Part shown: positions 42,474-61,103 of the stretch, piece after piece
How the letters are laid out: every line of letters begins with the position of its first letter
Position numbering within the stretch: position 1 is the first letter of the stretch
Origin: Vibrio artabrorum
Lineage (GTDB): Bacteria > Pseudomonadota > Gammaproteobacteria > Enterobacterales > Vibrionaceae
Assembly (NCBI RefSeq): GCF_024347295.1
Contig: NZ_AP025458.1
Coordinates: 2,480,001-2,544,000, forward strand
Length of the DNA stretch: 64,000 nucleotides
Reading direction: 5' to 3'
The notes under the pieces: model-generated
Databases searched by the model: none
What the model saw: only the letters and a program-made list of their open reading frames with translations
What the model was told of the DNA's origin: nothing
Translations under genes and position numbers: made by a program

Positions 42474-42968
42474 CTACTTACCTTCCATTGATAAGTAATC
42501 ATAAATAACTTGCAGGGCATGGTGCGTAGCCTGTTGACGTACTTGTGATCTATCGCCTGTAAATACATGCGTTTCTACTTTATTCCAGCCATTTAGCACT
42601 TTCCAAGCAAAACACACAGTCCCTACGGGTTTATCTTCGGTCGCGCCGCCAGGCCCGGCAATACCACTGATCGCGACCGCGATTGTGCCATTTGAATGTT
42701 GAAGAGCACCATCAGCCATCTCGATGACCACAGGCTCACTCACCGCACCAAATGCAACTAAGGTTTCCCGCTGAACATCGATCATCTGTTGTTTTGCTTC
42801 ATTACTGTAGGTTACAAAAGCACGGTCAAACCACGCAGAGCTCCCCGCAATATCGGTGACTGCACTCGCGACACCGCCGCCAGTGCAAGATTCAGCCGTG
42901 ACTAAAACATGTTTATGTTTCGCAAGTAAGTGTCCAACTTTTTCACTAAGAGCTTGAGTTTTCTGCAT
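42474..42968 (-). CDS. pncC: Nicotinamide-nucleotide amidase (CinA C-terminal family)
   Basis: Deamidates NMN to NaMN in pyridine nucleotide recycling. The 164-residue single-domain CinA protein has VTAESCTGGGVASAVTDIAGSS with the catalytic Ser region, and SGIAGPGGATEDKPVGTVCFAW. It is upstream of recA on the same strand. In other vibrios the divergent neighbour is mutS, and remains of that gene are seen at 43092. Confidence 0.93.
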   Translation of the reverse strand: MQKTQALSEKVGHLLAKHKHVLVTAESCTGGGVASAVTDIAGSSAWFDRAFVTYSNEAKQQMIDVQRETLVAFGAVSEPVVIEMADGALQHSNGTIAVAISGIAGPGGATEDKPVGTVCFAWKVLNGWNKVETHVFTGDRSQVRQQATHHALQVIYDYLSMEGK

Positions 42969-43091
42969 CTTTGGCTTCCCTAATCTGGCTATCTATCATT
43001 TGGTTGTGCATCTTTTCGCATGTGTCGCTTTTCGCACGAAACGCTTTCACGTATCCTAAGCTGCAATAGAAATAAACGAAAGAAGTTACCT

Positions 43092-43166
43092 GTGAAAGCC
43101 GATCAAAAACACACTCCTGATGCATTAGTATGCATTCACTTTAAAAACAACAATTTAAAACAATAG
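43092..43166 (+). pseudogene. mutS: 5' end of mutS, interrupted after codon 9
   Basis: From GTG 43092 the frame reads VKADQKHTP, which equals the start of Vibrio MutS (MKAEQKHTP or MKADQKHTP, normally continuing MMQQYL). It then switches to DALVCIHFKNN and stops at 43166 after 24 codons. GAAAG upstream could act as ribosome binding site. The gene is divergent from pncC, exactly where mutS lies in other vibrios. What follows is unrelated accessory DNA, so the mismatch-repair gene has been split at its 5' end by an insertion. The remainder of mutS is outside the window; whether it is still expressed from a new start cannot be told. Confidence 0.8.
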
Positions 43167-43348
43167 TAATTAGAAAACCATACTTTTACCTACACTAACC
43201 AAAAAAGCTAACTCATTGATAGAAAAGAAACCTTAGTTCTCTACCTCGAATTCCAATTAGTTGCTTTTTGTATGCATCTGCAAAATTTCAAGTTACAAAC
43301 TAAAGTATTCTACAAACCTAAAACCGTGGCACCCTATATCCTCGAAAC
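43119..43348. other. Left end of the inserted island (attachment-site region)
   Basis: The break from mutS lies at about 43118. ATGCAT occurs at 43120, 43130 and 43272, the first two forming an imperfect palindrome. They could be recombinase or excisionase binding sites. The region is AT-rich with no gene. The second attachment site would be to the right of the window. Confidence 0.45.
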
Positions 43349-43382: not shown

Positions 43383-43577
43383 CTATATGTTCTGCCTTTC
43401 CGCGACTTGTGCTTTTATCCAGTTCTGAATATCACTTTCAACCCAAGCAACTGAGCGACGGCTCAAACGTACTTGCTTTGGGAACCGACATTCTCTTATG
43501 CCCCTGTAGATAGCAGAGCGACTCAAAGTCGTCATTTCAATCACAGCTTCTAATTTTATTAACTTAATTTTATTCAT
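43383..43577 (-). CDS. AlpA-family helix-turn-helix regulator/excisionase-like protein
   Basis: A 64-residue MerR-like winged helix: KLEAVIEMTTLSRSAIYRGI, then CRFPKQVRLSRRSVAWVESDIQNWI, the typical AlpA pattern. Such proteins sit on integrative elements and activate the integrase or act as recombination directionality factors. It lies about 265 bp inside the island end. ATG 43577 has AGGTAAG upstream; a GTG ten codons earlier has no ribosome binding site. No integrase is seen in the window, so its partner should be at the other end. Confidence 0.88.
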   Translation of the reverse strand: MNKIKLIKLEAVIEMTTLSRSAIYRGIRECRFPKQVRLSRRSVAWVESDIQNWIKAQVAERQNI

Positions 43578-43932: not shown

Positions 43933-44361
43933 TCACAGGCTAGTAGTGCGTCCTGACTGTCTAATTTGCGCGTAGTGGGATTGAATTAAATGATCTGGAA
44001 TCACTTTCTGGTGCGTCCCGTCCCATACTTGATGCCATGGACTACCATCACGGTGTGTTAGGTCCATCAACTGTGGTCCAGTTAAATGACCAAGTTGAGA
44101 AACAACATCCTTCACGATAGATTCGCTTTCAGCATCTAGAACCACATCACCCTGTTCAGTAATAACGTCCACTCCGTACGACTTAAAACGAAAATACACT
44201 GATGGCACTAATGGACCAAACCTCCAAGCAAATACGTCATCAATCACTAAAGGCCGTTGAAAATGCGCTAAAGACAAACCATGGCATACGTAAGTGAGTT
44301 TCTCTAGCTGCAAATTGGAGAAACATTTGCCTTGCTCATACGCATGCTTAAGCAAGCTCAA
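43933..44361 (-). CDS. Panacea-domain protein (SocA-like, DUF4065)
   Basis: A 142-residue protein with the Panacea pattern: KLTYVCHGLSLAHFQRPL, then DVFAWRFGPLVPSVYFRFKSYG and a C-terminal LTHRDGSPWHQVWD. Panacea proteins are antitoxins for diverse toxins, or proteolytic adaptors such as SocA, and are common in phages and islands. No toxin-like partner is next to it: 98 bp separate it from mcrC, and the only frame downstream is the damaged membrane ORF. It may be an orphan or serve as an accessory to the restriction genes. Confidence 0.8.
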   Translation of the reverse strand: MSLLKHAYEQGKCFSNLQLEKLTYVCHGLSLAHFQRPLVIDDVFAWRFGPLVPSVYFRFKSYGVDVITEQGDVVLDAESESIVKDVVSQLGHLTGPQLMDLTHRDGSPWHQVWDGTHQKVIPDHLIQSHYAQIRQSGRTTSL

Positions 44362-44459: not shown

Positions 44460-45785
44460 TTATATTAATCGACATTCTTTAGGCCAGACCACTCCAGCAG
44501 TGGATCCCTCCTCGATTACAAACGGTACAATCCACAACTTCAACTTGTTATCACCACTAGTATTGAAGTCGAAACTCTGCTCTATGGCTGTCTCAAAACC
44601 ATCGTGTGCGGGATAGATCAGAAACACCTCCCTTTCATCTGCACTATCATCGAAATAGTGTTGTCCATAGGCAAACATCTGATAAAAATCGCTTTGCGAT
44701 AGACCGTACTTATCGGAACCGTTGTCTTTTGTCTGGTCTACTAGCTTCCACTTAGTATCCAAAACACTCACAACACATCCACCCTTTTCAAGCAACAAGT
44801 CGGGCTGTAACTTAAACCAACTCGCTTGTTTATGTTCCACCAAGCTTTTACGTTTAACCTGATTTTTCACAACAAAATCATCAGGCACCTGCTGACGTAA
44901 AACCTTAGCTACATAGTCTTCGAATACTCGTTCCATTGGAAACAGAAGAGAGATAGCTTGGTTGCTCCCTTTCATTGTCTGAGGTGAAAACCCGTTGAGT
45001 ATTAACGTAGCCCAAGCAATGGGAGTGTGGTAGTGACTCATTCCCCTATCTAACCTTAATCTCGATAGATCACTTTTATAGTCTCGGCTTAAAGGAACTT
45101 CTTCGAAAATAAAAAAGAGTTCCTGTAATTGCTTCTTGTGCTTAGGGCTACGGGAAAGCTTGGCAACAATATTCAATGCAGAATGGAGCAGCCTATTAGC
45201 AGGTCGATCAACCAGATACTCTTGATATTCGCAATAGAACTTGTGTTTGGTGACCAAGTTGTTACGCAATTGTCCTGCGGAAACGAGCTTACCTTTCTGA
45301 TAGGCAAGGTTGTCCACTGTCTGCACATAATCACTTTTCAAGCCCTTCTTAACAAGGTTAAGGACTGAATTAATAAATTGACCAATAAACACTTCAAGCA
45401 GAGGCATTTTCTCTTCATGAATTAACGCGCTAGACGTTTGAACATGTGAAAAACCTTTAAGAGCGCGAAGCATGACCAATAATGACTTTCTAGCGAGTGT
45501 CGGGTTAGACGACGTTCGACCAACTTTAGGCAACACTTCGATATGAGTACCATCGGGAGTAAAGATCACTCCCGCATGATTACGCACCTGTAGTGCTTCA
45601 CTCCCTGATTTTTTACAAAGCCGGAACAGCTTATTGTCTTCTTTCGAGCCTAACGCTATCTGCTTTAGAAAAACGAAGGCAGAGGGCGCGATAGGCTCTA
45701 CATGATTCACTTCTCTACATACATCGCTAGACTCACTGACCAAATAAGAAAACTCAAACAGGGAGATCTCTTTGTTAGTTCTCAT
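44460..45785 (-). CDS. mcrC: McrC-family endonuclease subunit of a type IV restriction system
   Basis: Partner of McrB; provides the nuclease for cutting modified DNA. The 441-residue protein has an N-terminal beta-rich region (GVIFTPDGTHIEVLPKVGR) and a C-terminal PD-(D/E)xK nuclease: LQPDLLL followed by VLDTKWKLV, then YQMFAYGQHYF typical for McrC. The start overlaps the end of mcrB by 11 bp, showing translational coupling. Confidence 0.9.
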   Translation of the reverse strand: MRTNKEISLFEFSYLVSESSDVCREVNHVEPIAPSAFVFLKQIALGSKEDNKLFRLCKKSGSEALQVRNHAGVIFTPDGTHIEVLPKVGRTSSNPTLARKSLLVMLRALKGFSHVQTSSALIHEEKMPLLEVFIGQFINSVLNLVKKGLKSDYVQTVDNLAYQKGKLVSAGQLRNNLVTKHKFYCEYQEYLVDRPANRLLHSALNIVAKLSRSPKHKKQLQELFFIFEEVPLSRDYKSDLSRLRLDRGMSHYHTPIAWATLILNGFSPQTMKGSNQAISLLFPMERVFEDYVAKVLRQQVPDDFVVKNQVKRKSLVEHKQASWFKLQPDLLLEKGGCVVSVLDTKWKLVDQTKDNGSDKYGLSQSDFYQMFAYGQHYFDDSADEREVFLIYPAHDGFETAIEQSFDFNTSGDNKLKLWIVPFVIEEGSTAGVVWPKECRLI

Positions 45786-48264
45786 CCATCACCTGTGCGG
45801 CAAGCACCTCAGTCAACTGCGGCTTGTAGATAGCAAGATAGCACTCACCATTGGTCCATATATCATCGTTTTGATCGGCTAAAGTATAACGATACTCGTC
45901 TGACGCGTACCCATCGGGTTCATACTGGTTGCCGAACAGCCTTTGGTACTCAACTTTTTCTCGACGCACAAATTGCAAGGCTTGCAGTTCTTTTCGATCA
46001 CTACCGAGCTTTTGATTATCCCCTAGCACGAGACGGATCTTGCTCCAGTTATCATGAAAATACTCTTGAAGCAAAGGAACGATTTTACCGATAAAAGCCT
46101 TGGCGAGGTTTGATAGCGCCTCATCATGATTCCCAGCTTTGGCAGCATTATAGGTTGGAAAGAAGAAGGCATGTCCTAGCGTATGTTCCCTGTCGTATAA
46201 GGCTTCGATACGGTCATTAAGCGACTTCAATAACTCACCGAGATCAATATACTGATTATTACCAATATCGATTAAACCATCGGACTCAAACAAGCGGATA
46301 TCTGGCATCATTTCGATGAACTCGAAACGTCTGCGTAACGCTGTATCCATCAAGGCGATAGAGCGGTCAGCTGTATTCATTGTGCCGATGATATCGACAT
46401 TCGAAGGCACGCTAAATGGTCTACCGCTATAGGCAAGATTGACAGACATAGGGTGAGCACCATCTTTGCGTTTGTCGGTCTCCACTAGTGAGATCAGCTC
46501 GCCGAAAATCTTCGAGATGTTGCCACGGTTAATTTCATCAATAAACATGGCGTATTGAGAGTCTGGATCTTGCTCTGCTCTACGGCATAGCTTTAGAAAC
46601 TCTCCGGGCTCAACAGAATAATGTACGTTTCCCTCACCATCCGTGGAGGCTCTAAGCCCTTCAATGAACTCTTCGTAACCGTAGGACTGATGAAACGTGG
46701 TGGAGGAAAAGCGTTTCACAACCGTTCCGGGTGGTGGCCCTTGCTCTAACTCTTTATGTAGAACCTGTAGTTCATCCACCAGCTCCAATTTGTCATCGAG
46801 AAGGTGCCAAACTGAATCACTGGTTTTATCAAACACCGCAGGTTCACCACGGCCTTTGTAATTAACGGTTGTCGAATTCGATACAGTGAACTTCTGTAAG
46901 TAACTCCATGCAGTCTGGCTTAAATTCCCATCTCGATTATTCACCTTTGCTTTAGTCTGGAAGTATTTACTGGCAACGATATCAGATACTTTCGCCTTTT
47001 TGCCTAAACTAAGAAGTGACAGCACTAACACTTGCATCCAATTCAGTGGAGCAATTTTTTCTTGTAGCCAAAGATATGCATCAACACCTTCTGTCTGACC
47101 TTTATACTTGGCTTGAAGTTGCTGTAGTTTGTAAGTTTTACCCGTACCCGGAGGCCCAAAAAGAATCACATTCTGAGAGCTTGAGGTTATCTCCTTTTCC
47201 ACTCTGTACTCCTCTCCATCTTCTTGTATCTGATCCATGTCTTCAGTTTTTTTGTGTCGTTTAGTTGCCCATTCGTATAAATTCCACAGATGAATATTTC
47301 TCGTATGTACATCCCAGTCATGTGGAATCAAGGTGTTCACTACCTCAACTAGCTTTTGATTATCAATGATCCAGTTACCTGTTGGTTTAATAGATAATTG
47401 AAACTGTTTTTTAAGACAGTCGATAACGGTGCTTAAATAATCTCTGCCAGCGATACTGGTATACTGCTCTGGAGATGCAGCACCAAATAACCTATGAATG
47501 ACAGTCCACAGTACACGATCAAACTCACCGTCCGTACGCCAATTTTTTAGAGTACTTTCATAAGTCTCTTTCGCGGGGGACTTAATAATTTTTTCCGTCA
47601 GCTTTTGCAAATAGCTAACGTTATTGCTTAGCTCTCGTTTGTACATAAAGCCCTGCCCAACACTCGCAATACCGTTGGATTTCTCATACCAGAGCTTATG
47701 TACATTCTCCTCTGATACCGTTTTTCCTTCTTTTATCTGCTTAGCCAACTGACAGGTATCTTGATAGTCTTTATACCAACCATTGGGGTTAAAGTGACTT
47801 TGTTTATCCCAAGATAGCAATTGCGTTAATGAATGGTTGTTCTTGCCAGAATCCCATAACTCCGCCAATATCTCTTCATATTCATTTTTAACCAGAATAC
47901 CTGATGTTTGGGGACTCCACTGTTGCTCTGGCATCGCTGAGTTAAGAAGTAACATAGGCAATAAACCCTCTTCGCAGGAGTGGCGAATGTCTTCTAGTTC
48001 AAATTGAATATAGGCTGTCTGCTTTTCTGGATTTTTCCAACCTGAATCCAAGTAACTTTCTTTTGTCACCTTACCTCTAGCGATAATTCCTCTAGGCTCA
48101 GTACCTAAGCGGATTAAGTAAACTACATCACCAATCTTGGGCTTCTTACTGTGACAAGACCAACGGACTTCATCTCCGACTTCGTAATCCAACTTACCGC
48201 TTTCGTTCCCATCGCCACCTGTAATGAAATGCTTTGGGTTCCACGTTAATAAATACTCTGACAT
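45775..48264 (-). CDS. mcrB: McrB-like GTPase with N-terminal EVE-type modified-base reader domain
   Basis: Motor and recognition subunit of a modification-dependent restriction system. About 829 residues. Residues 1-140 (YLLTWNPKHF ... GDVVYLIRLGTEPRGIIARGKV) look like an EVE/PUA-like domain that binds modified bases. The centre is helical. The AAA+ motor has Walker A GPPGTGKT (about 370-377), YEEFIEGLR, Walker B MFIDEINRGNISKIFGEL and the McrB hallmark GTMNTADRSIALMDTALRRRFEF. Starts at 48264, 48270 or 48276 are possible. It lies 51 bp after hsdS on the same strand. Confidence 0.9.
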   Translation of the reverse strand: MSEYLLTWNPKHFITGGDGNESGKLDYEVGDEVRWSCHSKKPKIGDVVYLIRLGTEPRGIIARGKVTKESYLDSGWKNPEKQTAYIQFELEDIRHSCEEGLLPMLLLNSAMPEQQWSPQTSGILVKNEYEEILAELWDSGKNNHSLTQLLSWDKQSHFNPNGWYKDYQDTCQLAKQIKEGKTVSEENVHKLWYEKSNGIASVGQGFMYKRELSNNVSYLQKLTEKIIKSPAKETYESTLKNWRTDGEFDRVLWTVIHRLFGAASPEQYTSIAGRDYLSTVIDCLKKQFQLSIKPTGNWIIDNQKLVEVVNTLIPHDWDVHTRNIHLWNLYEWATKRHKKTEDMDQIQEDGEEYRVEKEITSSSQNVILFGPPGTGKTYKLQQLQAKYKGQTEGVDAYLWLQEKIAPLNWMQVLVLSLLSLGKKAKVSDIVASKYFQTKAKVNNRDGNLSQTAWSYLQKFTVSNSTTVNYKGRGEPAVFDKTSDSVWHLLDDKLELVDELQVLHKELEQGPPPGTVVKRFSSTTFHQSYGYEEFIEGLRASTDGEGNVHYSVEPGEFLKLCRRAEQDPDSQYAMFIDEINRGNISKIFGELISLVETDKRKDGAHPMSVNLAYSGRPFSVPSNVDIIGTMNTADRSIALMDTALRRRFEFIEMMPDIRLFESDGLIDIGNNQYIDLGELLKSLNDRIEALYDREHTLGHAFFFPTYNAAKAGNHDEALSNLAKAFIGKIVPLLQEYFHDNWSKIRLVLGDNQKLGSDRKELQALQFVRREKVEYQRLFGNQYEPDGYASDEYRYTLADQNDDIWTNGECYLAIYKPQLTEVLAAQVMDEN

Positions 48265-48315
48265 TTTCATACCCACAAAAAAGCACGCTCAATGGCGTGC
48301 TTATATAATTATCAA

Positions 48316-49782
48316 TTATGCTTTCGCTGCGCGTTTTTTGGCAGCTTCCGCTTTCTTAGCTGCTTTGGCTAACGCTTCAGCTTCCTCTCGGGCCTTAGCA
48401 ATACGCTCAAGCAGTTTATCGGCGGACTCATCGTTTGGATCTTGCGGCACTAGCTCACCACGAAAGGCTTTAGCAAGAATACTTTGCGTAAGGTTATCCA
48501 CCTTTGCTTGGGCTTTTTTCACCTGCGCTTCGATTGTTTCAGCAAATGCGAAGTATTGGTCAACTAGGCGGACGATTTCTTTTTGCTCACTTAAAGACGG
48601 CAAGCCCAAGCAAATCTTAACCATGCGTTTGAGCCCCAAATCGCGATTGGCTACACCATGAGTATAGTTCTGAGACTGGGCGTAACCAATCGGTGAATTA
48701 AAGAATAAACTTAAGTACTCGGGCATTATTATTTCTTCTGATGTGACTCTAAGGACTGCAACGTGAACCCAAACATTAAACTCGTGTGTATGCTTGTTCA
48801 CGCACGAAACGCCCGTAGTCCCTCCCTTTGTTAGCAGTACATCGTTAAATTCAGGTTTACATCTAACACTTAACTCCTCGTGCAACTCTTGAGATATGTA
48901 TTTGGAAGACGAAAAATCAATACCTTTTATAGTGATATTGCGACCACTGATGAACTCAATTCCATCATCAACATACTTAGGACTGTAATGAGGTCCATCC
49001 TTAACAAACTTGGTTAGTTGATCTACGGACGTTAACAGCCAAGTTGCAGGCAAATCACCTACAAATTCACTCTCATTATCAGTAGGGAGATAAGGGGTTG
49101 GGCACTTTGCTTTCCAGCTCTCATTTTTAGGCGTTTTTCCTTTCGCCAGAAAATCTTTTCTTTTTTCAGATTCCCATCCAGACACAAACGCATCCTCGAT
49201 ATCACTAAGGGAAACCTGTTGACTATTGTCAACACGCCACTCCTCCGTCAACTTACCCGATACAGCTGAAGTCAGTACCGACTGGCGGAAGCGCTTGAGT
49301 ATATTCGGGATACTATCTAAACGCGCTTTTATGGTGTCGACCTGTGCCAATGCTTCATCGAGTTTTTCTACGATGCGTTTTTGTTCTGGCTCTGGTGGTA
49401 AAAGTATTGCCTGCTTATAAGCGTCCTCTCGATTCAGTCCCGGTATAGCGGTCGAGCGATTTAGCTTGGTCAGTGGAAGCTTTTTAAGTTGATAATACCA
49501 ATATTTAATGGAGCCACTTGGAATGTCATCCACAAAGTAAGTTGTATCTATTGGTGAAAAGGGCGTATCACTAATATGTACCTCACCGAAAGAACCTTTT
49601 CGACCGACAACCAAACCACCCGTGCTTACTAAAGGGGTTGAGTGCTTGCCAACAACTCCATTTGAACCATATACGGGGAAGCCATCTCCATCCCTAGTCT
49701 TCGCAGGTAAGGATTTTCCATACTTTAGTTCAATTACTTCGCCTAATTGGATTTTCTTCCATCCTGTTGGCAAATCATTCAT
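48316..49782 (-). CDS. hsdS: Type I restriction-modification specificity subunit HsdS
   Basis: Sets the DNA sequence recognised by the methylase and nuclease. The 488-residue protein has two target-recognition domains: the first with LPTGWKKIQLGEVIELKYGK and IPGLNREDAYKQ, the second with LPATWLLTSVDQLTKFVKDGPHYSPKY and GVANRDLGLKRM. Each is followed by a conserved coiled coil (PPEPEQKRIVEKLDEALAQVD; LPSLSEQKEIVRLVDQYFAFAE). The C-terminus is an unusual Lys/Ala-rich helix. The ATG at 49782 overlaps the hsdM stop (TGATG), a translational-coupling arrangement. Confidence 0.95.
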   Translation of the reverse strand: MNDLPTGWKKIQLGEVIELKYGKSLPAKTRDGDGFPVYGSNGVVGKHSTPLVSTGGLVVGRKGSFGEVHISDTPFSPIDTTYFVDDIPSGSIKYWYYQLKKLPLTKLNRSTAIPGLNREDAYKQAILLPPEPEQKRIVEKLDEALAQVDTIKARLDSIPNILKRFRQSVLTSAVSGKLTEEWRVDNSQQVSLSDIEDAFVSGWESEKRKDFLAKGKTPKNESWKAKCPTPYLPTDNESEFVGDLPATWLLTSVDQLTKFVKDGPHYSPKYVDDGIEFISGRNITIKGIDFSSSKYISQELHEELSVRCKPEFNDVLLTKGGTTGVSCVNKHTHEFNVWVHVAVLRVTSEEIIMPEYLSLFFNSPIGYAQSQNYTHGVANRDLGLKRMVKICLGLPSLSEQKEIVRLVDQYFAFAETIEAQVKKAQAKVDNLTQSILAKAFRGELVPQDPNDESADKLLERIAKAREEAEALAKAAKKAEAAKKRAAKA

Positions 49783-51356
49783 CACTCAATCTCCGACTTT
49801 TCTGCCAAGCCAAATGCTTCTTCAAGCAACTGCTTTTGCCCTTCAGCTTCGTCGTGTGCGCCTAGCGCTTGCATTAATTGGTAGATCTCAGACATCGCTT
49901 CAGTGAGCTCCGCCATCGCTTCACCAGCTAATACTTCTGGTTCTGGTAAGTTTTCAGCGCTGGTAGCTTCTAGGTCTTTAAGCCATGAAATATTTAGGCT
50001 ATCGCTTTTAGTGTCGCGAATGTATTCACGATTAAACTTCTTCCAACGAGCGTTTTCCGATGTATTTTCAGCGTCACTCTCAACTTCACCAAGCTGTTGC
50101 CACACACCTTCGTTACGCGGTGATTGACCGTTAGCATCACTACCATAAGCTTCAATAAAAGATGCGAAGTGTTTTTCAGTCAATGGACGTCGTTTACCAA
50201 AAGTATTCATATTGGTACGCATGTCGTACACCCATGTACTGGTCGTGCAGTTTTCTTCTTGGTCTTTGTTTTCTGGCGTGCCTTTTTGGAAGAACAGTAC
50301 GTTGGTCTTCACCCCTTGGGCGTAAAAAATCCCTGTAGGTAAACGCAGGATGGTGTGAAGGTTACACTTGTTCATTAGGTCCGCTCGAACCTTTTGCCCC
50401 ACACCTGCCTCAAACAAGACGTTATCTGGAAGTACGACAGCGGCACGACCACCCGGCTTTAAATGACGATAAATGTGCTGCAAAAACGCCAGTTGCTTAT
50501 TACTGGTTTCATAGGTCAAATCATCACGAGTTGGACCACCGCCACCTTTAGATGTGCCAAACGGCGGGTTAGAAAGAATCAGGTTCACTTTCGGTAGTTG
50601 TGCCCCTTCGCCACTTAGGGTATTACCTTGATGAATAGCACCTTCGCCCTCACCTTCAATACCGTGCAATAGACAGTTCATCAAAGCTAAGCGGCGCGTA
50701 GAAGGAACTAGCTCCATGCCGTTATAAGCTTTGCGCTTTTGAAAATCTTGCTCTTTTTCACCTAAGTCATAAAGATCATCAGTTTTATCTTTAATAAACT
50801 CATGAGCAGCAATTAAGAAGCCAGCCGTACCTGCTGCGGGATCTTGAATAGTTTCGCCTGCTTGTGGGTTCATCAACTTAACGATAGCGTCGATCAATGG
50901 ACGCGGGGTGAAGTATTGACCTGCACCCGATTTGGTTTCATTAGCATTCTTCTCTAACAAGCCTTCATACAAGTCACCTAGACCATCTTCACGTGCTGAG
51001 AACCAATCAAGTTCATCAATACGCTTCACTAATTGACTAAGGTGCTTAGGCTCTTTAAGGCTTGTTTGTGCACCTGCATAAATTGCAGCAAGCAATGGAT
51101 CATGGTGTTTACCCAGATCAAGCAGCATTTGACGGTAGTTATCATACTGTTTAATACCGGTCTGAGTTGCGATATCCGACCAACGACACCCTTCAGGCAA
51201 TACATGTTGAGTAATTCCGGCTTCCGCTTGTTCGGTTTCCATTTTTATGAACAACAACAACACTAATTCAGTGACGTAGTCCGTGTAAGTAATACCGTCA
51301 TCACGTAGTACGTCACACAGTTTCCAAAGTTTTTGTACGATTTCATTGTTGTTCAT
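49782..51356 (-). CDS. hsdM: Type I restriction-modification DNA methyltransferase HsdM
   Basis: N6-adenine methyltransferase. From ATG 51356 (MNNNEIVQKLWKLCDVLRDDG) 524 residues. HsdM N-terminal helical domain, GQYFTPRPLIDAIVKLMNP, SAM motif I DPAAGTAGFLIAAHEF, catalytic motif IV NPPFGTS. AGGAAAAAGC precedes the ATG; the GTG eight codons earlier spans it. Upstream hsdR is 180 bp away, so hsdMS can have its own promoter. Confidence 0.96.
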   Translation of the reverse strand: MNNNEIVQKLWKLCDVLRDDGITYTDYVTELVLLLFIKMETEQAEAGITQHVLPEGCRWSDIATQTGIKQYDNYRQMLLDLGKHHDPLLAAIYAGAQTSLKEPKHLSQLVKRIDELDWFSAREDGLGDLYEGLLEKNANETKSGAGQYFTPRPLIDAIVKLMNPQAGETIQDPAAGTAGFLIAAHEFIKDKTDDLYDLGEKEQDFQKRKAYNGMELVPSTRRLALMNCLLHGIEGEGEGAIHQGNTLSGEGAQLPKVNLILSNPPFGTSKGGGGPTRDDLTYETSNKQLAFLQHIYRHLKPGGRAAVVLPDNVLFEAGVGQKVRADLMNKCNLHTILRLPTGIFYAQGVKTNVLFFQKGTPENKDQEENCTTSTWVYDMRTNMNTFGKRRPLTEKHFASFIEAYGSDANGQSPRNEGVWQQLGEVESDAENTSENARWKKFNREYIRDTKSDSLNISWLKDLEATSAENLPEPEVLAGEAMAELTEAMSEIYQLMQALGAHDEAEGQKQLLEEAFGLAEKSEIE

Positions 51357-51426
51357 TTTGCTTTTTCCTAGCGGGTGCACAGCTTGTTTTATGTAAACGA
51401 GCTGGCAAAATACAAATAAAAATAAT

Positions 51427-51536: not shown

Positions 51537-54500
51537 TTAACCTTGTTGCTGCCAAATGTGCTCATTTAGTGCAGCTAAAACTTGCTCTAGCTGCCCATTC
51601 AAACGCTTATCTAACCCCATAGAGCCACCATCTTGAGCAAAACTTCGATTAATATCATCCGTTTGTAAGACAATTTCTTTCTTAAGTTGCTTGGCAATGC
51701 GATCCAGCCATTTAAGCTGAGGCTTAGTCCATGAATGCATGGCATAGATACTATCCATTGCCATATCTATACGTCGCTCATAAGGCATTAACGCTTCACC
51801 TAGCGCTGCCCTGCGTATGTGACCCACTATCGACGCAGCAATATCGCGATTCGTTGTCTTCTTCCATGCGCTTTGTAAATCGGCTTCTTTAAAATCTTGG
51901 TTATCCAGTAAGATACGAATCTCTTTTAACTGAGCACGAGTCAGCTCTTTGGGCTTACTCACAACGGCATTAAGAGCGGCATTACTGTTAAGATTATCTT
52001 TAATGAAGCGCTCAAAGGCGGTGAGATAATCCTCTGGTTTACTGTAAGCAGAAAAGTTCTGCTCTCGAATGATAAACTCATCCTCATGATCAGAAATAAT
52101 GTATTTCTCACCACCATTTAGCATCCCTCGCACACTCTCAACTCGCTTAGCTAAACTACTGTGCTGCTTTAGCATTTGTGCTGCTTGCTTAGGTCCAGCT
52201 TGGTGCAGTTGCTGGTGGATTTTATCAGCAGGACATCCCCACTCTTGTTCAATACTCTCCAGCTCTTGTTTCAGAATTGGGTCTTTTTCTGCTCGCGTCT
52301 GCGCCTTGCGCATAACACGCATGACCTTTTGGCTTAGTTCATCAAGAGCATCTTCTGCAAAGCTGCGTCCTTCTTCACTGCCAGCTAAATCAAGATTACG
52401 CTCGTCAGACACTTCATCAATCAATTGCTCAATTGTAATATTCGGCCTTTTAACCACGGGCTTCATGGTGTTCACTTGCTCTAACGAGGCATACAGGTCA
52501 ACCGGGTCAAAAATTCTAAATACGGTTTTACCAATTTCGTCACAACGACGCGTAGCTCGACCTAACATTTGTTCGTACAAAATGCGCGACTTAACTCTGC
52601 GCATAAAGACAAGATTACAAATCTTAGGTACATCAATGCCTGTAGTCAGTAGATCGACCGTAATTGCTACATTGGGGAAAGTTTCGTTTTTAAACTTACG
52701 GATGGCTTGCTTCACTTTATCCGTGCTACCCGTGATTTTTTGCACGGCATGAGCAGGAATATCATCACCATGGATCTTCTGGAGGGTTTCTACCAGTAAG
52801 CGTTCTACTCTATCTGCGTGTTGATCGGTAACACAGAAGATCATGGTTTTCTCTTGGCTGGTTGGATCGATATCTTCAGCTAGAGCTTCACACACCGTAC
52901 GATCAAAATTCTCGTTAATCACAGTGCGGTTGAAATTCTCAACATGAAAATCAAGCTCGTCCTCAAGCTCTACACTATTCACTTCTCCCGATAAGGTATC
53001 AACAACGTCGACTTGCTCACCTTGATTGAATTTTATACCCGCTTGGTTAAGCCTAGTTTTATAGGTGATTGGAGTTTCATGGTCGATAAGATAATCTTCA
53101 GCCACCGCCTCACGATACGAATAAGTGTAAACTGGGGGGCCAAAAATCTCTGCGGTATGCGCGGCTGGTGTGGCAGTTAAACCGATTTTTACGGCATCAA
53201 AGTAATCAAGCACACGACGGTAACTAGAACGATAAAGGTTAGGGTCTCGCGCTACTAACTCAGCTTCACCCAACTCTTGATCCAATGTATAACCACGGTG
53301 AGCTTCATCAACGATAATACAGTCGTATTGGTCAACGGGTAGGATCACCGCATTATCATTGTCGCTGTCTTTATCTTCAAACAAACGCTTCACCATGGCC
53401 TGCACGGTAGCAACATGTACGCGAGTCTCAGCCTCTGGCAACTTATCTGACATTTCTTTTATGTCATAGATATTGGACAAACGACGTTTTTGCTCTAAAG
53501 GTGTTTCATCGAAAGCTTCAGTCGCTTGATCACCTAGAGCAGAGCGGTCGACGAGAAATAAAATACGTTTAAATCTTTCCGTTTTCAGGAAGCGGTAAAG
53601 CAGGCCAATGATGGTACGAGTTTTACCTGTACCTGTAGCCATGGCTAATAAACTTTCACGTTTATTTTGAGCTAGTGCTTCTTCTACCGCGATAACAGCC
53701 TTTTTCTGATATGGTCTCAGACCAAGGTACTCAAACGGCTCAACAATCATCTCTTGCTGTGCTTTATGGTGATCTCGATGCAGTAAGTCCAGTAGCCCTG
53801 CGGGGCTCATAAAGCTCTGACAGGCACGTTTTGCATTAGATGCTAAACGACAATCACGGAACCATGTTCCGCTTTGCTCTTGCATTTGACGTAAGAAAGG
53901 CTTGCCATTACAAGCAAAGACAAAAGGTAGTTTATAGTTAGCTTCACCTTCACATCCTTGCCACGATTCGCTGCGTCCAGCCTCTATCCAAGCTGGCTTA
54001 ATCTCGTCTTCAAGGTTAACGATACTTTGAGGATCAAACTCTCTGCTATAACGCTCTGCTTGAGCAATTGCGCCAGAAACGTTAAGGCGCTTTCTTTTCG
54101 CTTCAACGGCTGCAATAGGGATTAAGCCAACAAACAAGACATAATCAGCACGATGCTTCTGCCCCTGCATTTCCCACTCTGCAATTGCCATATTACGTCC
54201 TTTCTCAGGACGAACACCTTTACGGTAATCAAGAACAACTGAGTCAGCTTCCCACCCGGCATCTCGTAACTGCTGATCGATAATGAATCGAGTTTGGTCT
54301 TCCGTTAAGTCAAAGCGGCTATTTTTAAGTATCTCGACACGCTGCTTGAGCGTTTTAGCTTCTTCAGCTTCATCGAGGTTGGTCGGTTGTTCTTGGCTGC
54401 GCTCACGTAATTGGGTTTCTAATTCACGAATGCGAGCTTTGGCTTTCTCTACACTCATTGAATCATTGGCTTCTAATACGGATAGCTGCTGCTTGAATCC

Positions 54501-55040
54501 AACCAGAGATTTGAATTGACGGTGTGGTAGAGCAAGCTCAACTGATTGCTGCGCTTCCAACTGCTTAATTACTTCTTTTAGCCGCGCAATCTCTTTCTTG
54601 GATTGCTCGACCAATTCTGCTGTTTGCTCTTCAACTGGCGGAACATACTTTGGTGGTTGAAAATTAGCTTCACCTGTCTTAACTCGATAGTAAATCGTCG
54701 CAGCTTTATGAGAGATTTCTAAAGCGTGGCCTGCTGCAACCGGATTATTGTAATAACCATGCGCAGCTTTGTTGCCATGCTTTCTCAGTGCATGAAATAT
54801 TGTTAATCGTTCATCATCTAAGAGTCCCCGATTTCCCAACTCTTTTAGCTGGTCAAAGGTTGATAAATTCGGAGCGAGCTTAACTAGCTCTGCGATAAAG
54901 CCAACGATCTCTTCGGAGAGTAAACGAACCTTAAACAAGGTAGTGTGAGGATCTTGGTGCAAATTGCGCTCAGCAGAAAGCGCAATCGCATACAAGGTGT
55001 CATTAACCCCTTGTAAAAAATCAAAGTTTGACGAAGCCAT
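51537..55040 (-). CDS. hsdR: Type I restriction endonuclease subunit HsdR (EcoEI-like)
   Basis: Translocating nuclease of 1167 residues. The N-terminal 140 residues resemble DUF4145 (TTLFKVRLLSEEIVGFIAEL, LRKHGNKAAHGYY), followed by a coiled coil. The nuclease domain has DYVLFVGLIPIAAVEAKRKR, the D-ExK core. The SF2 motor has Walker A ATGTGKTRT, DEAH in IVDEAHRG, TATPAAHT, and TTGIDVPKICNLVFMR. An EcoEI-type C-terminal domain follows. With hsdM and hsdS at 49782-51356 the system looks complete and intact. Confidence 0.95.
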   Translation of the reverse strand: MASSNFDFLQGVNDTLYAIALSAERNLHQDPHTTLFKVRLLSEEIVGFIAELVKLAPNLSTFDQLKELGNRGLLDDERLTIFHALRKHGNKAAHGYYNNPVAAGHALEISHKAATIYYRVKTGEANFQPPKYVPPVEEQTAELVEQSKKEIARLKEVIKQLEAQQSVELALPHRQFKSLVGFKQQLSVLEANDSMSVEKAKARIRELETQLRERSQEQPTNLDEAEEAKTLKQRVEILKNSRFDLTEDQTRFIIDQQLRDAGWEADSVVLDYRKGVRPEKGRNMAIAEWEMQGQKHRADYVLFVGLIPIAAVEAKRKRLNVSGAIAQAERYSREFDPQSIVNLEDEIKPAWIEAGRSESWQGCEGEANYKLPFVFACNGKPFLRQMQEQSGTWFRDCRLASNAKRACQSFMSPAGLLDLLHRDHHKAQQEMIVEPFEYLGLRPYQKKAVIAVEEALAQNKRESLLAMATGTGKTRTIIGLLYRFLKTERFKRILFLVDRSALGDQATEAFDETPLEQKRRLSNIYDIKEMSDKLPEAETRVHVATVQAMVKRLFEDKDSDNDNAVILPVDQYDCIIVDEAHRGYTLDQELGEAELVARDPNLYRSSYRRVLDYFDAVKIGLTATPAAHTAEIFGPPVYTYSYREAVAEDYLIDHETPITYKTRLNQAGIKFNQGEQVDVVDTLSGEVNSVELEDELDFHVENFNRTVINENFDRTVCEALAEDIDPTSQEKTMIFCVTDQHADRVERLLVETLQKIHGDDIPAHAVQKITGSTDKVKQAIRKFKNETFPNVAITVDLLTTGIDVPKICNLVFMRRVKSRILYEQMLGRATRRCDEIGKTVFRIFDPVDLYASLEQVNTMKPVVKRPNITIEQLIDEVSDERNLDLAGSEEGRSFAEDALDELSQKVMRVMRKAQTRAEKDPILKQELESIEQEWGCPADKIHQQLHQAGPKQAAQMLKQHSSLAKRVESVRGMLNGGEKYIISDHEDEFIIREQNFSAYSKPEDYLTAFERFIKDNLNSNAALNAVVSKPKELTRAQLKEIRILLDNQDFKEADLQSAWKKTTNRDIAASIVGHIRRAALGEALMPYERRIDMAMDSIYAMHSWTKPQLKWLDRIAKQLKKEIVLQTDDINRSFAQDGGSMGLDKRLNGQLEQVLAALNEHIWQQQG

Positions 55041-55281: not shown

Positions 55282-55974
55282 ATGTCCTATGACATTGTCT
55301 ATGAGCAACTGGCGCTGCGTGTACCAAAAGAAGACGTTGTTCAGCAAGCCTGTATATTCTTCAAAGAACGTTTAAACCATACCGACATCCGAACCCCAAA
55401 CGAACTCAAACAAGCCCTATACGAACGTTACAGACTTAGACTGCGAGCAGAAGACTTATTCATGCTCCATATACTTATTGGCTCTAGCAATCTCTTTGAC
55501 ACGGAGACAAACAAACGAGCACGTAGCTGGCAGTTCTGTGGTGTAAACACATTCAACCAACTACTCGTGAAATACGGTTGTGACTGGTCAGCAGCCGCTG
55601 AATCAGGAGATGTCAAACTCAATGGTCGCGATACCAAAGCAGAAAGTTGGATACGTGCATTACGTAACACACTGAATCTCGCTAAAGACTATGGCGTGAT
55701 GCCGTATTGCCACACTCTAGAGATATGGCTTAAAGCGCCATTGGACACCTCGAAACAAACCCAACTAGATGAGTTAAAAACGCAGCTAAGTGATTTAGAT
55801 GCAACTTGGAAAGAACGGCAACGATTTGATGACGATGGCTTTGATGTCTCAATAAAACCCAAGTCTGCTTTTGAGATGTGGCTCTTTCAGCAGCTCATCA
55901 ATGGTTACCAAGGCAAGTGCTGGATAAATGGCTCAGAGCCGCCCTATCACGCTGTAAAGAAGCACTCTATCTAA
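55282..55974 (+). CDS. Accessory protein of unknown function
   Basis: A 230-residue soluble protein I do not recognise. It begins MSYDIVYEQLALRVPKED and is rich in helices, with charged Arg/Glu/Asp clusters (YERYRLRLRAED), one GCDWSAAAESGDVK segment and no signal peptide or membrane helix. AGGAGCCCTCC precedes the ATG. A terminator follows at 56035. Codon use looks normal for the region. It opens the plus-strand half of the island, next to the restriction genes, so a defence or mobile-element housekeeping role is possible but unsupported. Confidence 0.75.
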   Translation: MSYDIVYEQLALRVPKEDVVQQACIFFKERLNHTDIRTPNELKQALYERYRLRLRAEDLFMLHILIGSSNLFDTETNKRARSWQFCGVNTFNQLLVKYGCDWSAAAESGDVKLNGRDTKAESWIRALRNTLNLAKDYGVMPYCHTLEIWLKAPLDTSKQTQLDELKTQLSDLDATWKERQRFDDDGFDVSIKPKSAFEMWLFQQLINGYQGKCWINGSEPPYHAVKKHSI

Positions 55975-56090: not shown

Positions 56091-57026
56091 ATGCAAACAA
56101 CACAACCAAACAGCTCATCCAAAGACCAACAGGATTCTTTACTCACATCAGAGGCAAAAAAAATTAAACCGATCACAGTACTTGTCCAATGGTCGGAATC
56201 TCGCGAGTTCACTGAAGAAACACTCTATGACTTTAATGAATTCGAAAAGAAAGCTCTGGAGGTTGCTAAACGCAATCCATTAGGCGGGTACGACAAAACA
56301 AAAGTAACCGTGACCTTTGACAATGAATATCAGCACGAATGCCGCTTAGATTTAGGCTGTGGTGGTAATGATCAGGGTTTTGCTGAACACTGTTTAAGTA
56401 TGGCTCGTTATTACCGTCAGCATAAAGGGGATGTCGATAAGCCTTGGCTTTATGACAAACACCACCAGCAGTTAATCGAACTCATAAACACTTATGAATT
56501 GGACCACTCATTCGTAGACCTAGGGCGTATGCAAGTTAAACAGGTCGAGGAGCAAGCTAAAGCCGAAGAAGCTGCAAAAGAAGAAGCCAAACAACAGGAG
56601 CGGGAAAGAGCGTGGCGTGAACACCAACAAGCGGAGGAGGCGTTTCAAGAGACCTTAGAAGTACCACAATGGGCAAAGGGCGTGATTGTTGCCACACTCA
56701 CGGACTATGACGCTGAAATCAGTGAGCCGTATGCAGGAGAGTTTCACACCAAAACATTAAAGACCATCATTCTCGCTTGGTCGAAACACTCTCGAAACCT
56801 ATTCCCTGAGCTGCGTAAGGCATGTCTGAATCACCCTGAAACGGCTGTTCTTAACGATCCAGAGAAAAGCATTGAACACCGTGAACGCTTTGCCATGGGA
56901 GAAGGCTATTACCTAACTGACACCAAATATATTCGTTATGGATGGCAAATCAAGAAGCGAAACTTTTACAGAGAGGACAACAAAGCACGGTATGTGCCTT
57001 TAGGTGAGATCGCGATAGGCGAATAA
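56091..57026 (+). CDS. LPD25-like accessory protein
   Basis: A 311-residue protein. Residues 25-150 (ITVLVQWSESREF, LGGYDKTKVTVTFDNEYQHECRLDLGCGG) resemble the LPD25 domain of large polyvalent mobile-element proteins. A highly charged coiled coil follows (EEQAKAEEAAKEEAKQQERERAW, about 175-215). A C-terminal domain of unknown type ends YVPLGEIAIGE. AAGGAAGCACTC precedes the ATG. Its function is unknown; the domain is associated with plasmids and integrative elements, consistent with the island. Confidence 0.7.
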   Translation: MQTTQPNSSSKDQQDSLLTSEAKKIKPITVLVQWSESREFTEETLYDFNEFEKKALEVAKRNPLGGYDKTKVTVTFDNEYQHECRLDLGCGGNDQGFAEHCLSMARYYRQHKGDVDKPWLYDKHHQQLIELINTYELDHSFVDLGRMQVKQVEEQAKAEEAAKEEAKQQERERAWREHQQAEEAFQETLEVPQWAKGVIVATLTDYDAEISEPYAGEFHTKTLKTIILAWSKHSRNLFPELRKACLNHPETAVLNDPEKSIEHRERFAMGEGYYLTDTKYIRYGWQIKKRNFYREDNKARYVPLGEIAIGE

Positions 57027-57359: not shown

Positions 57360-58226
57360 CTATGTTTCCAGTGGAATAGTGGTATTAGTCATCTTAGCTA
57401 TTAGCCCTCCAATTCGCTTGCGCATCTCACGTCTATCTACAATCATGTCGATAGCGCCATGCTCTAAAAGGAACTCACTTCGCTGAAAGCCTTGGGGTAA
57501 CTTCTCACGAACGGTTTGCTCGATGACACGACGCCCAGCAAACCCAATAATTGCCTTTGGTTCCGCGATATTAATATCTCCCAGCATGGCTAGACTCGCT
57601 GACACACCACCCAATGTTTGGTCTGTTAATACAGATATATAAGGGAGACTTGCACTGGACAAACGATTTAACGCTGCGCTGGTTTTAGACATTTGCATTA
57701 ACGACATCAGGGACTCTTGCATGCGAGCACCACCGCTGGCAGAAAAACAAACTAATCCACAATTTGCATCAATAGCAGCCTCAACCGCACGGACAAAACG
57801 AGCGCCGACAACAGAACCCATTGAGCCAGCCATAAAAGAAAACTCGAAAGCACAGGCAACAACAGGTAAGCCCAGCAACTTTCCTTCCATCACAACTAAG
57901 GCATCCTTTTCCCTTGTACTTTTCTGGGTTACAGCAAGGCGTTCCTTATAGCGTCTCAGATCTTTAAAGTTCAGTAAATCTTGTGGTTCATATTCACTGG
58001 CAATCTCAACGCGTTCGCCTTTATCCAGAAAGCTGTCTAAGCGGTGGCGTGCCGACATTCTCAAATGATGATTGCATTTAGGACACACCTCCAAATTTTC
58101 CTCAAGAGCCATGCGGTAGAGGATTTGGTCACATGAGGGACATTTAGTCCATACTCCTTCTGGGATCGACGCCTTGCGTGTACGGATTATATTCTTTTTA
58201 TCTAATAGCTTTTCTAACCAACTCAT
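57360..58226 (-). CDS. accD: Second acetyl-CoA carboxylase carboxyltransferase beta subunit (AccD), putatively andrimid-insensitive
   Basis: Partner of AccA in the carboxyl transfer that yields malonyl-CoA for fatty acid synthesis. 288 residues: zinc ribbon CPSC / CPKC (Cys29, 32, 48, 51), then the crotonase core with [18 protein letters not shown] and [20 protein letters not shown]. It is shorter at the C-terminus than the usual ~300-residue AccD, and it sits in the island without folC or truA neighbours, so it is probably an additional copy. E. coli AccD reads TDPTMGGVSAS around Met203; here it is [11 protein letters not shown], with Leu205 at that position and Pro to Gln two residues before. 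From memory, Met203 to Leu lowers sensitivity to andrimid, and producers carry such an AccD-like subunit (AdmT). I infer target-based resistance; not proven. Confidence 0.9.
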
Positions 58227-58265
58227 GGGACACCTTTACCATACGACTTCAGTAATGGGTATTGT

Positions 58266-58299: not shown

Positions 58300-58334
58300 G
58301 GATTTAATAATCCAATATTATGGGATTAAACGAA

Positions 58335-59240
58335 ATGTTAGATAAGATTGACCAGCAGTGGTTAAAAAGTTTTCATTGTGTCTACGAGAACAACAGCTTT
58401 AAACGTGCAGCGGAATTTCTAAGCTTGCCGACATCAAACGTCAGTCGCCATATCGCTTTGCTGGAAGAGCGATTGGATACACGACTATTTGACAGAACTA
58501 CACGGCGAATTGCTCCGACAGATGCAGGAGAACATCTTTATTTACGAACACAGCCGCTGCTGGACAAACTTAATGATGCACTCGAGGAAGTGACCCTTCA
58601 TTCTCATGAAGTAATAGGACAACTTAAAGTCCTAATGCCTGATTCTCCAGCTTTAGCCAAAGCAGTGGTTTCTTTTTGTACCCTGCATCCCTCAATTTCA
58701 TTGTGCTGTGATACGAGCATTAGTCCCAAGGAAGATTTACTTGATGGGTTTGACGTCATTTTAAGTTTTCACAGAGGAAAGCTCGAAGACAACAGTTGGG
58801 TAGCTAAGGAAGTTAAACGTTGGCAAAGTGTTGTTGTAGCATCCCCTCAACTTCTACAGACCTCTCCCAGACCTTTTCAGATTACTGATTTGAAACACGT
58901 TCCTTGCATCAATAGTTTTACCGCATTAAATGGTACTCCTTGGGTTTTCAAAAACGTTAAAGGTGAGCTAATTACCCAGAAGGTGCAGTCCTCATTTAAA
59001 GTTAATAGTGGACATCTTGCCAAATCAGGTGCATTAGCTAGTTTGGGTTTCGCTATACTACCAATCGAATCCTGCCTTAATGAGATAGATGCTGGCTCTT
59101 TGGAAATCGTTGAACTGGAGTATGAACCTGAAGATCTAGTTTTGTATGTCTTTTATGCTTCCAGAAAACACTTGGCCAAAAAGATCCCGATGTTTATCGA
59201 ACACTTACAGCACCAAGCAAACATAGATAAAGGTACATAG
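58335..59240 (+). CDS. LysR-type transcriptional regulator divergent from the second accD
   Basis: About 301 residues. The N-terminal winged helix has KSFHCVYENNSFKRAAEFLSL-type sequence, then TSNVSRHIALLEERLDTRLFDRTTRR. The effector domain runs from about residue 85 (IGQLKVLMPDSPAL) to the end and contains NSGHLAKSGALASLGFAILP. The ATG at 58335 (MLDKIDQQWLKSF) has GGGA upstream; ATG 58320 would add five residues but has no ribosome binding site. Divergent from accD with an inverted repeat between, so it probably regulates that gene, perhaps in response to an inhibitor or fatty-acid signal (inference). Confidence 0.88.
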   Translation: MLDKIDQQWLKSFHCVYENNSFKRAAEFLSLPTSNVSRHIALLEERLDTRLFDRTTRRIAPTDAGEHLYLRTQPLLDKLNDALEEVTLHSHEVIGQLKVLMPDSPALAKAVVSFCTLHPSISLCCDTSISPKEDLLDGFDVILSFHRGKLEDNSWVAKEVKRWQSVVVASPQLLQTSPRPFQITDLKHVPCINSFTALNGTPWVFKNVKGELITQKVQSSFKVNSGHLAKSGALASLGFAILPIESCLNEIDAGSLEIVELEYEPEDLVLYVFYASRKHLAKKIPMFIEHLQHQANIDKGT

Positions 59241-59705: not shown

Positions 59706-60179
59706 ATGACTACCCCTAATTCTGATTACAAAAAACAACAGCGCTATCAAGAGAATGAAATCCTAGAGCATGCCGCTGAGATACTCGCGACACGCTATGT
59801 ACGTGGTGATGCCTTAATTAGCCCAGATGCGACCAAAGAGTATGTACGCTGCAAACTCGGCAGCTATGAACGTGAAGTATTTGCTTTACTGCTACTGGAT
59901 AACCAAAACCGACTGATTGAGTTTAAAGAGCTCTTTCATGGCACCGTCGATGCCGCCAGTGTCTACCCAAGAGAAGTAGTAAAAGCTGTGTTGGAAGTGA
60001 ATGCAGCTGCGGTGATTATGGCTCACAACCACCCTTCAGGCGACTCTACCCCCTCACAAGCGGATAGACGTATCACCGAAAGACTCAAAGACGCTTTAGC
60101 GCTGGTGGATGTGCGCGTATTGGACCATATCGTAACAGGCGAAATCTGCACCTCATTTGCTGAGCGAGGCTGGTTATGA
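59706..60179 (+). CDS. radC: RadC-family JAB1/MPN metallo-domain protein
   Basis: 157 residues with the metal motif [14 protein letters not shown] (HxHPSGx7SxxD) and [21 protein letters not shown] before it. This is the short form with the JAB domain but without the long N-terminal helix-hairpin-helix part of chromosomal RadC. Such short RadC proteins are common on islands and plasmids; the biochemical role is unknown. ACAGGAGCCC precedes the ATG. It overlaps the next gene by 4 bp. Confidence 0.92.
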
Positions 60180-60613
60180 TTGAACAACACTATGGTGATA
60201 TCAGTATCAATGATGCACTGCTCTCGTCACTAGAAAGTCTTCTTACTGGTCACACACTACCTGAACAGGCTGAAAGACTGGTATTGAACTGCCGTCAAAT
60301 GAGTTACTACCGCCATCGTCAAGGACTGCACCCTATAGAGATACAGCTCAAACGAGAGTCAATCTCAGAGCCTTGGGTCATCGTGTTCTTTGCGAGCTTT
60401 TCTTACCCTAATGACAACAGTACTAGCGTAGAGCCGGAGCTGTACTTTCATCTTGCTAATCGTTGGTTTTATCAACCCGATACAGGTACAGCGGATTTAT
60501 CCCATCCAGAAGTGCAAGAGGTGCTCTCTGCTTGGGTGAATGCATTAACTCGCCACCTAAGCCGCAACGTCTTTGATAGCGTGCAACTCTCGCTAGTCAG
60601 CTCGTTTAACTAA
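60176..60613 (+). CDS. DUF2787-family protein (first copy)
   Basis: 145 residues, soluble. The family core is [20 protein letters not shown] followed by [35 protein letters not shown]. No function is known; the family occurs in Vibrio islands near RadC. Start overlaps the radC stop (ATGA), showing coupling. Confidence 0.82.
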
Positions 60614-60659
60614 ATCCCTAACTACTTTCTGATTTATCCCTAAACAAGGAGGACTGTCG

Positions 60660-61103
60660 ATGTCCCAATTAGCCTTTACGTCATTACCCCTACCTGTTTC
60701 TAAGAAGCTGTATGCGTTGCTTAATGCGCGTTACTCGGCTCATTTGCTTAACAATGAAACGCTCTCCACCAGCCGTCATGTGGTCTTTAACTTTCGTGAT
60801 AAAACTTACAGTGCTGATGCTGGTGGCTTTCACCCTGTCGAAATTTCTATTTGCCAGTCTTCAAGAGAAGAATGGTGTATTGAGTACATCACAGACTTTG
60901 CTTATATGGGGAGCTACTACCCTGAGCTTGAGCGGAATTTGGATTTTGACTTTCGCGCTCGTCAATGCTTTGCCAGCTATCACGGTTGGTTTTCAATGAA
61001 AGATAACCGTAACGCTGTCGAGCTGTATCGATTGTGGGAGAGTAATTTTCTCGCATACGTCGAGATGGAGACATTCGACGATATTACTCTTACCCCGCAA
61101 TAA
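60660..61103 (+). CDS. DUF2787-family protein (second copy)
   Basis: 147 residues, a diverged paralogue of the previous gene: VFNFRDKTYSADAGGFHPVEISI aligns with its [12 protein letters not shown] region, and SYYPELERNLDFDF with its [10 protein letters not shown]. Both end with a helix that follows Trp (SAWVNAL; RLWESNF). AAGGAGG gives a strong ribosome binding site. Side-by-side duplication suggests a heterodimer or divergence of roles (inference). Confidence 0.82.
   Translation: MSQLAFTSLPLPVSKKLYALLNARYSAHLLNNETLSTSRHVVFNFRDKTYSADAGGFHPVEISICQSSREEWCIEYITDFAYMGSYYPELERNLDFDFRARQCFASYHGWFSMKDNRNAVELYRLWESNFLAYVEMETFDDITLTPQ

Follow-up and report, generated by a model that had tools for sequence, protein, structure and literature searches.

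The accessory island at the mutS locus of Vibrio artabrorum is very probably a 34.1-kb mobile element with predicted genes for phage defence, borne by its own integrase and belonging to the mutS-specific family of Chu et al. 2017, which has replaced the start of mutS. The window that we analyzed is a stretch of 64,000 nucleotides (G000:C1:2480001-2544000, where G000 is the window's own genome), and it was extended with DNA fetched from the right of it (L002). According to this explanation, a tyrosine integrase would have recombined the attP site of the element with the CAYACNCCNATGATGCA codons (HTPMM) of the host mutS, leaving the native promoter and the first nine codons behind at the left end of the island. 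While the island is present, a full 861-aa MutS would be encoded from a start and an upstream region that belong to the island. Integrase activity and excision are steps that we infer.

The native mutS start at the left end of the island

The stretch from 43092 to 43166 of the window (plus strand) reads VKADQKHTPDALVCIHFKNNNLKQ followed by a stop. It consists of the first nine codons of native mutS (VKADQKHTP), then DALVCIHFKNNNLKQ and the stop, forming a dead ORF of 24 codons. In other vibrios VKADQKHTPMMQQ is the N-terminus of the intact MutS and continues into MMQQYLKLKA (for example in L045, L049, and L050), and the intact form GTGAARGCYGAWCAAAAACAYACNCCNATGATGCA is present in 88 of 227 Vibrio genomes. 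Immediately upstream of the orphaned start, at 43045..43091 (plus strand), the left flank contains a block, CGTATCCTAAG, that is common to many Vibrio mutS upstream regions; this probably represents the native promoter region, with the remainder of the gene now 34 kb away. The original prediction had taken VKADQKHTP to be the native start of MutS, cut off from its gene, and this reading stands; a chance frame is ruled out because the start is that of intact vibrio MutS and is accompanied by the conserved upstream block.

To the left of the orphaned start, in divergent orientation, is a pncC-like ORF (42474..42968, minus strand; the gene name is that of the original prediction), the native left neighbor of mutS. 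In three genomes that lack this island, the positions of the pncC relative and mutS show them adjacent in G169 and G110 (approximately 115 bp and 350 bp, respectively, from the end of the pncC relative to the mutS match) and approximately 5.4 kb apart in G053, consistent with pncC-mutS being the ancestral order, as had been proposed.

A complete mutS with a start supplied by the island

A single mutS was found in the genome that the window comes from; it is complete and open and lies at G000:C1:2557210-2559744. This is 13 kb past the right end of the window and 34.1 kb from the left attachment site (attL), so the rest of mutS lies to the right, where the original prediction expected it. The ORF (L002:17168-19753, plus strand) begins with ATG, reads MQKETTKNKDIKAAHTPMMQQYLKLKA..., and encodes 861 aa with no stop, scoring over the family cut-off. 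At the right junction MMQQYLKLKA is preceded by MQKETTKNKDIKAAHTP in place of VKADQKHTP, and the right end of the island provides a new upstream region, an in-frame start codon, and 17 codons, of which the first 14 are new and the last three read HTP. Loss of mutS is ruled out by this complete open gene. As read from the sequence, mutS stays whole; the island gives it a new beginning, and the presence of the island need not switch it off. The proposal that mutS is cut from its promoter and start holds for the native promoter and start, which have been separated from the gene, but mutS has not been left without a start.

In 13 elements the native mutS start and the one supplied by the island could both be read, the latter being of several dissimilar sequences. 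The gap between the integrase gene and mutS is strongly conserved among G000, G014, G022, G062, and L077, and contains an identical block of more than 30 bp. A sigma-70 scan found no promoter-like site between the integrase gene and mutS (0 vs a shuffle mean of 1.2) and one site on the native side, which with 9 of 12 matches (shuffle mean of 0.6) is little above chance, the scan being weak either way. Adequate transcription of mutS from the island side may be supposed by analogy, with the 12B01 element of V. splendidus and the dusA island IMEVchUSA3 as precedents. In one of the elements (G584; L123, L124; G584:C1:679001-718999), the island-supplied mutS start is a near-exact repeat of the native one over approximately 50 bp, and the integrase is decayed, with several stops.

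The original prediction took the SpyCI islands at mutL of Streptococcus pyogenes as its precedent. In a switch of that type, integration would cut mutS from its promoter and turn repair off, and excision would restore it. The native upstream region and start do lie 34 kb from mutS, the weak sigma-70 scan predicts no promoter on the island side, and SpyCI is reported to act in this manner at mutL (PMC3430984, PMC4689407). However, the island supplies an in-frame start, as do the 13 elements read, there is no stop in mutS, and functional MutS is made with the 12B01 element integrated (PMC5296598). We consider such a switch very improbable, and the nearest precedent is the 12B01 mutS element rather than SpyCI. 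An assembly artefact or mis-join at mutS can be given practically no weight, as the genome is assembled in two contigs and is 99.98% complete, and junctions of this kind recur elsewhere in Vibrio, in further families of the order, and among E. coli records.

Integrase and attachment sites

The right end of the island carries a gene for a 444-aa tyrosine recombinase (L002:15659-16993, minus strand) with Arm-DNA-bind_3, Phage_int_M, and Phage_integrase domains (Pfam). The gene is next to the right attachment site (attR), 174 bp from mutS and divergent from it; an integrase at the right end had been anticipated. From attL (window position 43110) to attR (L002:17210, equivalent to G000:C1:2557210) the island measures 34.1 kb. 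The cores of both sites lie inside the HTPMMQQ codons of mutS, and at both ends the junction falls between the HTP and MMQQ codons. The attL core, CACACTCCT-GATGCA (43110..43124, plus strand), is 2 bp shorter than the attR core, CATACACCTATGATGCA, which lies outside the window at L002:17210; comparison of CCT-GATGCA at attL with CCTATGATGCA at attR indicates that the two bases AT are absent at attL. The original prediction of a direct repeat is thereby borne out in part: the core repeat of the two ends is present and imperfect, and searches of the right end for an exact repeat of the left junction found none (tolerating as many as 3 mismatches in 33 bp, or 2 in 16 bp).

Inside the left end, at 43188..43196 (plus strand), is a motif, ACCTACACT, with a partner approximately 141 bp left of attR. 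Its offsets inside the two ends are the same in all five Vibrio elements that were delimited in full and at the two contig ends of G014; the left-end variant in G042 is ACCTATACT. The left ends of G526 and of the E. coli OW1E2 element carry it as well, and G635 has a single copy, reversed, near attR. With the patterns used, the motif was not found near the cores of KL53, G383, and G584. This placement suggests that ACCTACACT is a putative arm site of the integrase.

Among 422 matching phage records and 773 matching plasmid records, none had at least 60% identity to the integrase, and viral contigs yielded just two matching loci, at 25%. A phage or plasmid origin of the integrase was rejected given the absence of such relatives at 60% or above.

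Gene content of the island

Pfam and PADLOC matches show accessory genes, restriction and regulator genes among them, over more than 20 kb to the right of the split, in agreement with the original description. The genes of the left part of the island lie on the minus strand and encode an AlpA-family regulator at the left end (43383..43577; PF05930, E 1e-20), a SocA/Panacea-domain protein (43933..44361; PF13274), a McrC-like protein (44460..45785; PF10117, E 9e-98; no PADLOC match), and an AAA protein that is McrB-like by its position beside the McrC-like gene (45775..48276; PF07728; PADLOC REase_II). These are followed on the same strand by a type I restriction system composed of the specificity subunit HsdS (48316..49785; PF01420; PADLOC Specificity_I), the methyltransferase HsdM (49782..51380; PF02384; PADLOC MTase_I), and the R subunit HsdR (51537..55040; PF04851/PF08463; PADLOC REase_I). 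Two backbone proteins are then encoded on the plus strand: a 230-aa protein with no Pfam match (55282..55974), also found in the G022 and G062 islands (as two ORFs in G062), and an LPD25-domain protein (56091..57026; PF18840) with relatives at 96% in G022 and G062. A second AccD, the acetyl-CoA carboxylase beta subunit (57360..58226, minus strand; PF01039/PF17848; 77% identical to the genome's other copy), and a LysR-family regulator (58320..59240, plus strand; PF00126/PF03466) form cargo. Further backbone genes on the plus strand encode a RadC/JAB protein (59706..60179; PF04002; relatives in G022, G062, and E. coli KL53), two DUF2787 proteins (60176..60613 and 60660..61103; PF10980 for both), and a protein with no Pfam match (61421..62188) that is also found in G022, G062, and L077 (27%). 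Part of an aldose epimerase gene (63327..64000, minus strand; the rest lies outside the window) is the first of a sugar cargo slot (L002:3327-10778) that encodes the aldose epimerase, a ROK regulator, a sugar transporter, and a DUF5107-TPR protein, with no blastp relatives in the other islands compared. To the right of this cargo are genes for an RNase H-like protein, three YagK/YfjJ proteins, and a 392-aa protein, and then the integrase gene and mutS. No conjugation genes or relaxase, such as an integrative conjugative element would carry, were found by Pfam among 28 island proteins scanned.

The second accD of the island adjoins the LysR regulator gene (together 57360-59240 of the window). 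Duplicates of the acetyl-CoA carboxylase beta subunit can protect against andrimid-type antibiotics, which are made by some vibrios.

The islands of G000, G022, and G062 have a common backbone (the 230-aa, LPD25, RadC, DUF2787, YagK/YfjJ, RNase H, and 392-aa proteins and the integrase) and three slots that vary. The slot on the attL side contains type I restriction and McrBC genes in G000; in G022 it contains HsdR and HsdM that are 96-98% identical to those of G000 and a different HsdS, and in G062 HsdM- and HsdS-like proteins that by blastp are distant from the G000 ones. The island of E. coli KL53 is annotated with type I restriction R, M, and S genes, and for that of OW1E2 the annotation names a specificity subunit together with an N-6 DNA methylase. 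At 5-7 kb the G042 and G189 elements are small, and the restriction proteins of G000 had no blastp match in them. The defence-cargo part of the original idea is sound for this island and for several others. RadC/JAB and DUF2787 genes recur in the mutS islands of Vibrio (59706-61103 of the window) and E. coli KL53 (L156:25479-26486), despite integrases that share approximately 50% identity.

The island might also be a fixed remnant with an inactive integrase, in which mutS merely has a new start and no dynamics occur. Such a state would fit the small size of the G042 and G189 elements and the several stops in the integrases of two other genomes, G537 and G584. Against it, the G000 integrase is open over 444 codons and is 98% identical to the integrases of two other genomes of the genus, which have the same backbone and different cargo, and this suggests recent transfer of the element. 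A fixed remnant is in our view unlikely, if far from negligible, and a mobile element with a working integrase is the explanation we prefer.

Distribution of mutS islands

Relatives of the integrase at more than 50% identity were found in 5 of 227 Vibrio genomes, including the window's own, and all five are beside mutS. A sixth Vibrio carrier, G014, was missed by the search because its contig ends inside the integrase gene; its attL and mutS start are readable. The family-level search found integrase relatives in 6 of 329 genomes, adding G635, in which the gene is beside mutS, and the order-level search found them in 11 of 394 genomes, three of them among the Vibrio carriers and eight others; seven of these eight have the gene beside mutS, the exception being G521. 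When all searches were pooled, an integrase at E <= 1e-60 was beside mutS in 13 of 14 genomes, G521 again being the exception. In E. coli, relatives of the G458 integrase gene were found by blastn in 20 of 5,426 genomes; of five that were read, those of KL53, OW1E2, VREC0864, and STEC434 are beside mutS and a fragment in RM14723 is not.

Weak relatives account for 24 of the 29 matching Vibrio genomes, at 25-32% identity, and none of the mutS start motifs looked for occurs in these 24 loci (L008-L031, with flanks of up to approximately 1.5 kb), which were then set aside. Among 27 integrase loci from another search, only L077 (83%) and L078 (52%, the G189 element) exceed 50% identity, the other 25 being at 45% or below. 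L077 is a contig of a metagenome-assembled genome binned as Lacinutrix (Bacteroidota), and it bears the 83% integrase beside a Vibrio-type mutS start, MTKNTTKNKELKTSHTPMMQQ; it is probably a mis-binned Vibrio contig.

The 2-bp core difference and predicted excision products

The 2-bp difference between attL and attR is found in 8 of 13 delimited elements, including all seven of the Vibrionaceae. In G000, G014, G022, G042, G062, G189, and G635, attL reads CAYACNCCT-GATGCA and attR CAYACACCTATGATGCA; in G526, from another family, the left core is also shorter, CATACGCCTGATGCA. The five elements without the difference (G383, G458, G584, KL53, and OW1E2, two of them from E. coli) have ATGATGC at both ends. 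These junction counts exclude G372, G384, G537, and L077, for which no attL was found (contig ends or pattern absent), and do not include the left ends of VREC0864 and STEC434. In an integrase tree of 16 rows, six short-core and four full-core rows fall on opposite sides of one branch with support of 99/96; the tree is without G014 and G635 (short-core) and G584 (full-core), and has several long branches and near-copies. The tree gives a weak indication of a single change in the core along the integrase lineage, and the junctions suggest that the 2-bp difference is a trait of the whole lineage rather than specific to 12B01. As far as title and abstract searches go, such a lineage-wide difference is not in print. 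The titles and abstract beginnings searched, with supplementary tables and subscription papers outside their scope, mention no scar in any strain other than 12B01.

On excision, the 2-bp difference would set the outcome. When the joined flanks were translated in both registers, a crossover left of AT gave an 853-aa MutS beginning VKADQKHTPMMQQ, and a crossover right of AT gave a frameshift and a 38-aa product; both products would be expected from a staggered crossover that spans the two bases. In the Vibrio elements as well as in G526 and OW1E2, the left arm motif stands at 68-69 bp from GATGCA, a constant spacing that mildly favors GATGCA as the core. AT is absent from all seven Vibrionaceae attL sites. 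A circle that took AT would yield an attL with AT at its next integration, and as none of the seven has one, AT-less circles fit better. These insertions may have come from AT-less circles, from entry into scarred genes, or from arrival with flanking DNA by transformation. The 12B01 circle carries the 2 bp, as reported (PMC5296598). The attL/attR difference was rejected as proof of scarring, given that intact MutS would follow from a crossover left of AT and that no attL of the seven has AT.

The short-core pattern CAYACNCCTGATGCA had 34 matches in 33 of the 227 Vibrio genomes. Thirty of these were read, the four without a locus being left out, and they comprised six attL sites and 24 matches elsewhere; none of the 30 is followed by the mutS codons, as a scarred island-free mutS would be, in what is a thin sample of one genome per species.

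A further possibility is that the repair gene serves as a hostage: the Vibrionaceae core would be kept 2 bp short, a scarring loss would cost the host mismatch repair, and the defence island would be stabilized in this way across the lineage. We put this forward as a speculation that we think rather doubtful. Chu et al. had proposed for 12B01 that the element benefits, the new part being conservation across the branch. Should excision leave a scar here as well, an entire branch of islands, some of which contain restriction genes, would tie mutation rate to their own loss; if there is no scarring here, 12B01 is the exception and the islands merely swap the mutS start.

Comparison with known systems

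A class of mutS-specific elements has already been published, and this island is a further case of it. In V. splendidus 12B01 the element supplies the mutS start, and its excision, at a frequency of approximately 1 in 10,000 genomes, results in a 2-bp deletion and frameshift and a hypermutator (PMC5296598). In the same report, excision occurred without a scar in E. coli 536, P. putida F1, and B. multivorans CF2, and Chu et al. considered that scarring was perhaps specific to 12B01; the E. coli junctions analyzed here come from strains other than 536 and fit excision without a scar. All seven delimited Vibrionaceae elements share the sequence feature from which such a scar would arise. The link between mutation rate and the island that had been proposed is thus possible; it is not new, and its sign is reversed, since in 12B01 it is loss of the element, not its presence, that breaks the gene. 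With our analysis, the switch as proposed changes sign, and the island is linked to a system that has been studied by experiment.

The island resembles the 12B01 element and the beta- and gammaproteobacterial mutS family in its position in HTPMMQQ, an integrase gene beside mutS (within 300 bp), a new start and upstream region that come from the element, an orphaned native start upstream, and a 2-bp core difference, which for 12B01 is deduced from its 2-bp scar. They differ in size (27 kb for 12B01, 34 kb here) and host genome, and excision was shown by experiment in 12B01, whereas here it is a prediction. The cargo here consists of type I restriction-modification, McrBC, a second accD, and sugar genes. 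In Burkholderia, mutS-specific recombination was reported earlier (PMC2612704): GI8c of B. pseudomallei and Bt-GI4 of B. thailandensis have, like the present island, a predicted recombination core in mutS, ACGCCGATGATGCAG; GI8c is described there as a putative prophage, and its two direct repeats of 15 bp suggest that it lacks the 2-bp difference.

The dusA islands, represented by IMEVchUSA3, and SXT at prfC likewise integrate at the 5' end of a gene and provide a new promoter and N-terminus; for IMEVchUSA3 a lacZ fusion demonstrated a new but weaker promoter (PMC8409611), and SXT is cited in that paper. Unlike here, their targets are not mismatch-repair genes, and IMEVchUSA3 is mobilized by IncC plasmids. 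SpyCI, too, is a mobile island that occupies the 5' end of a gene for mismatch repair, but it silences mutL when integrated (PMC3430984, PMC4689407), whereas mutS in V. artabrorum keeps an in-frame start.
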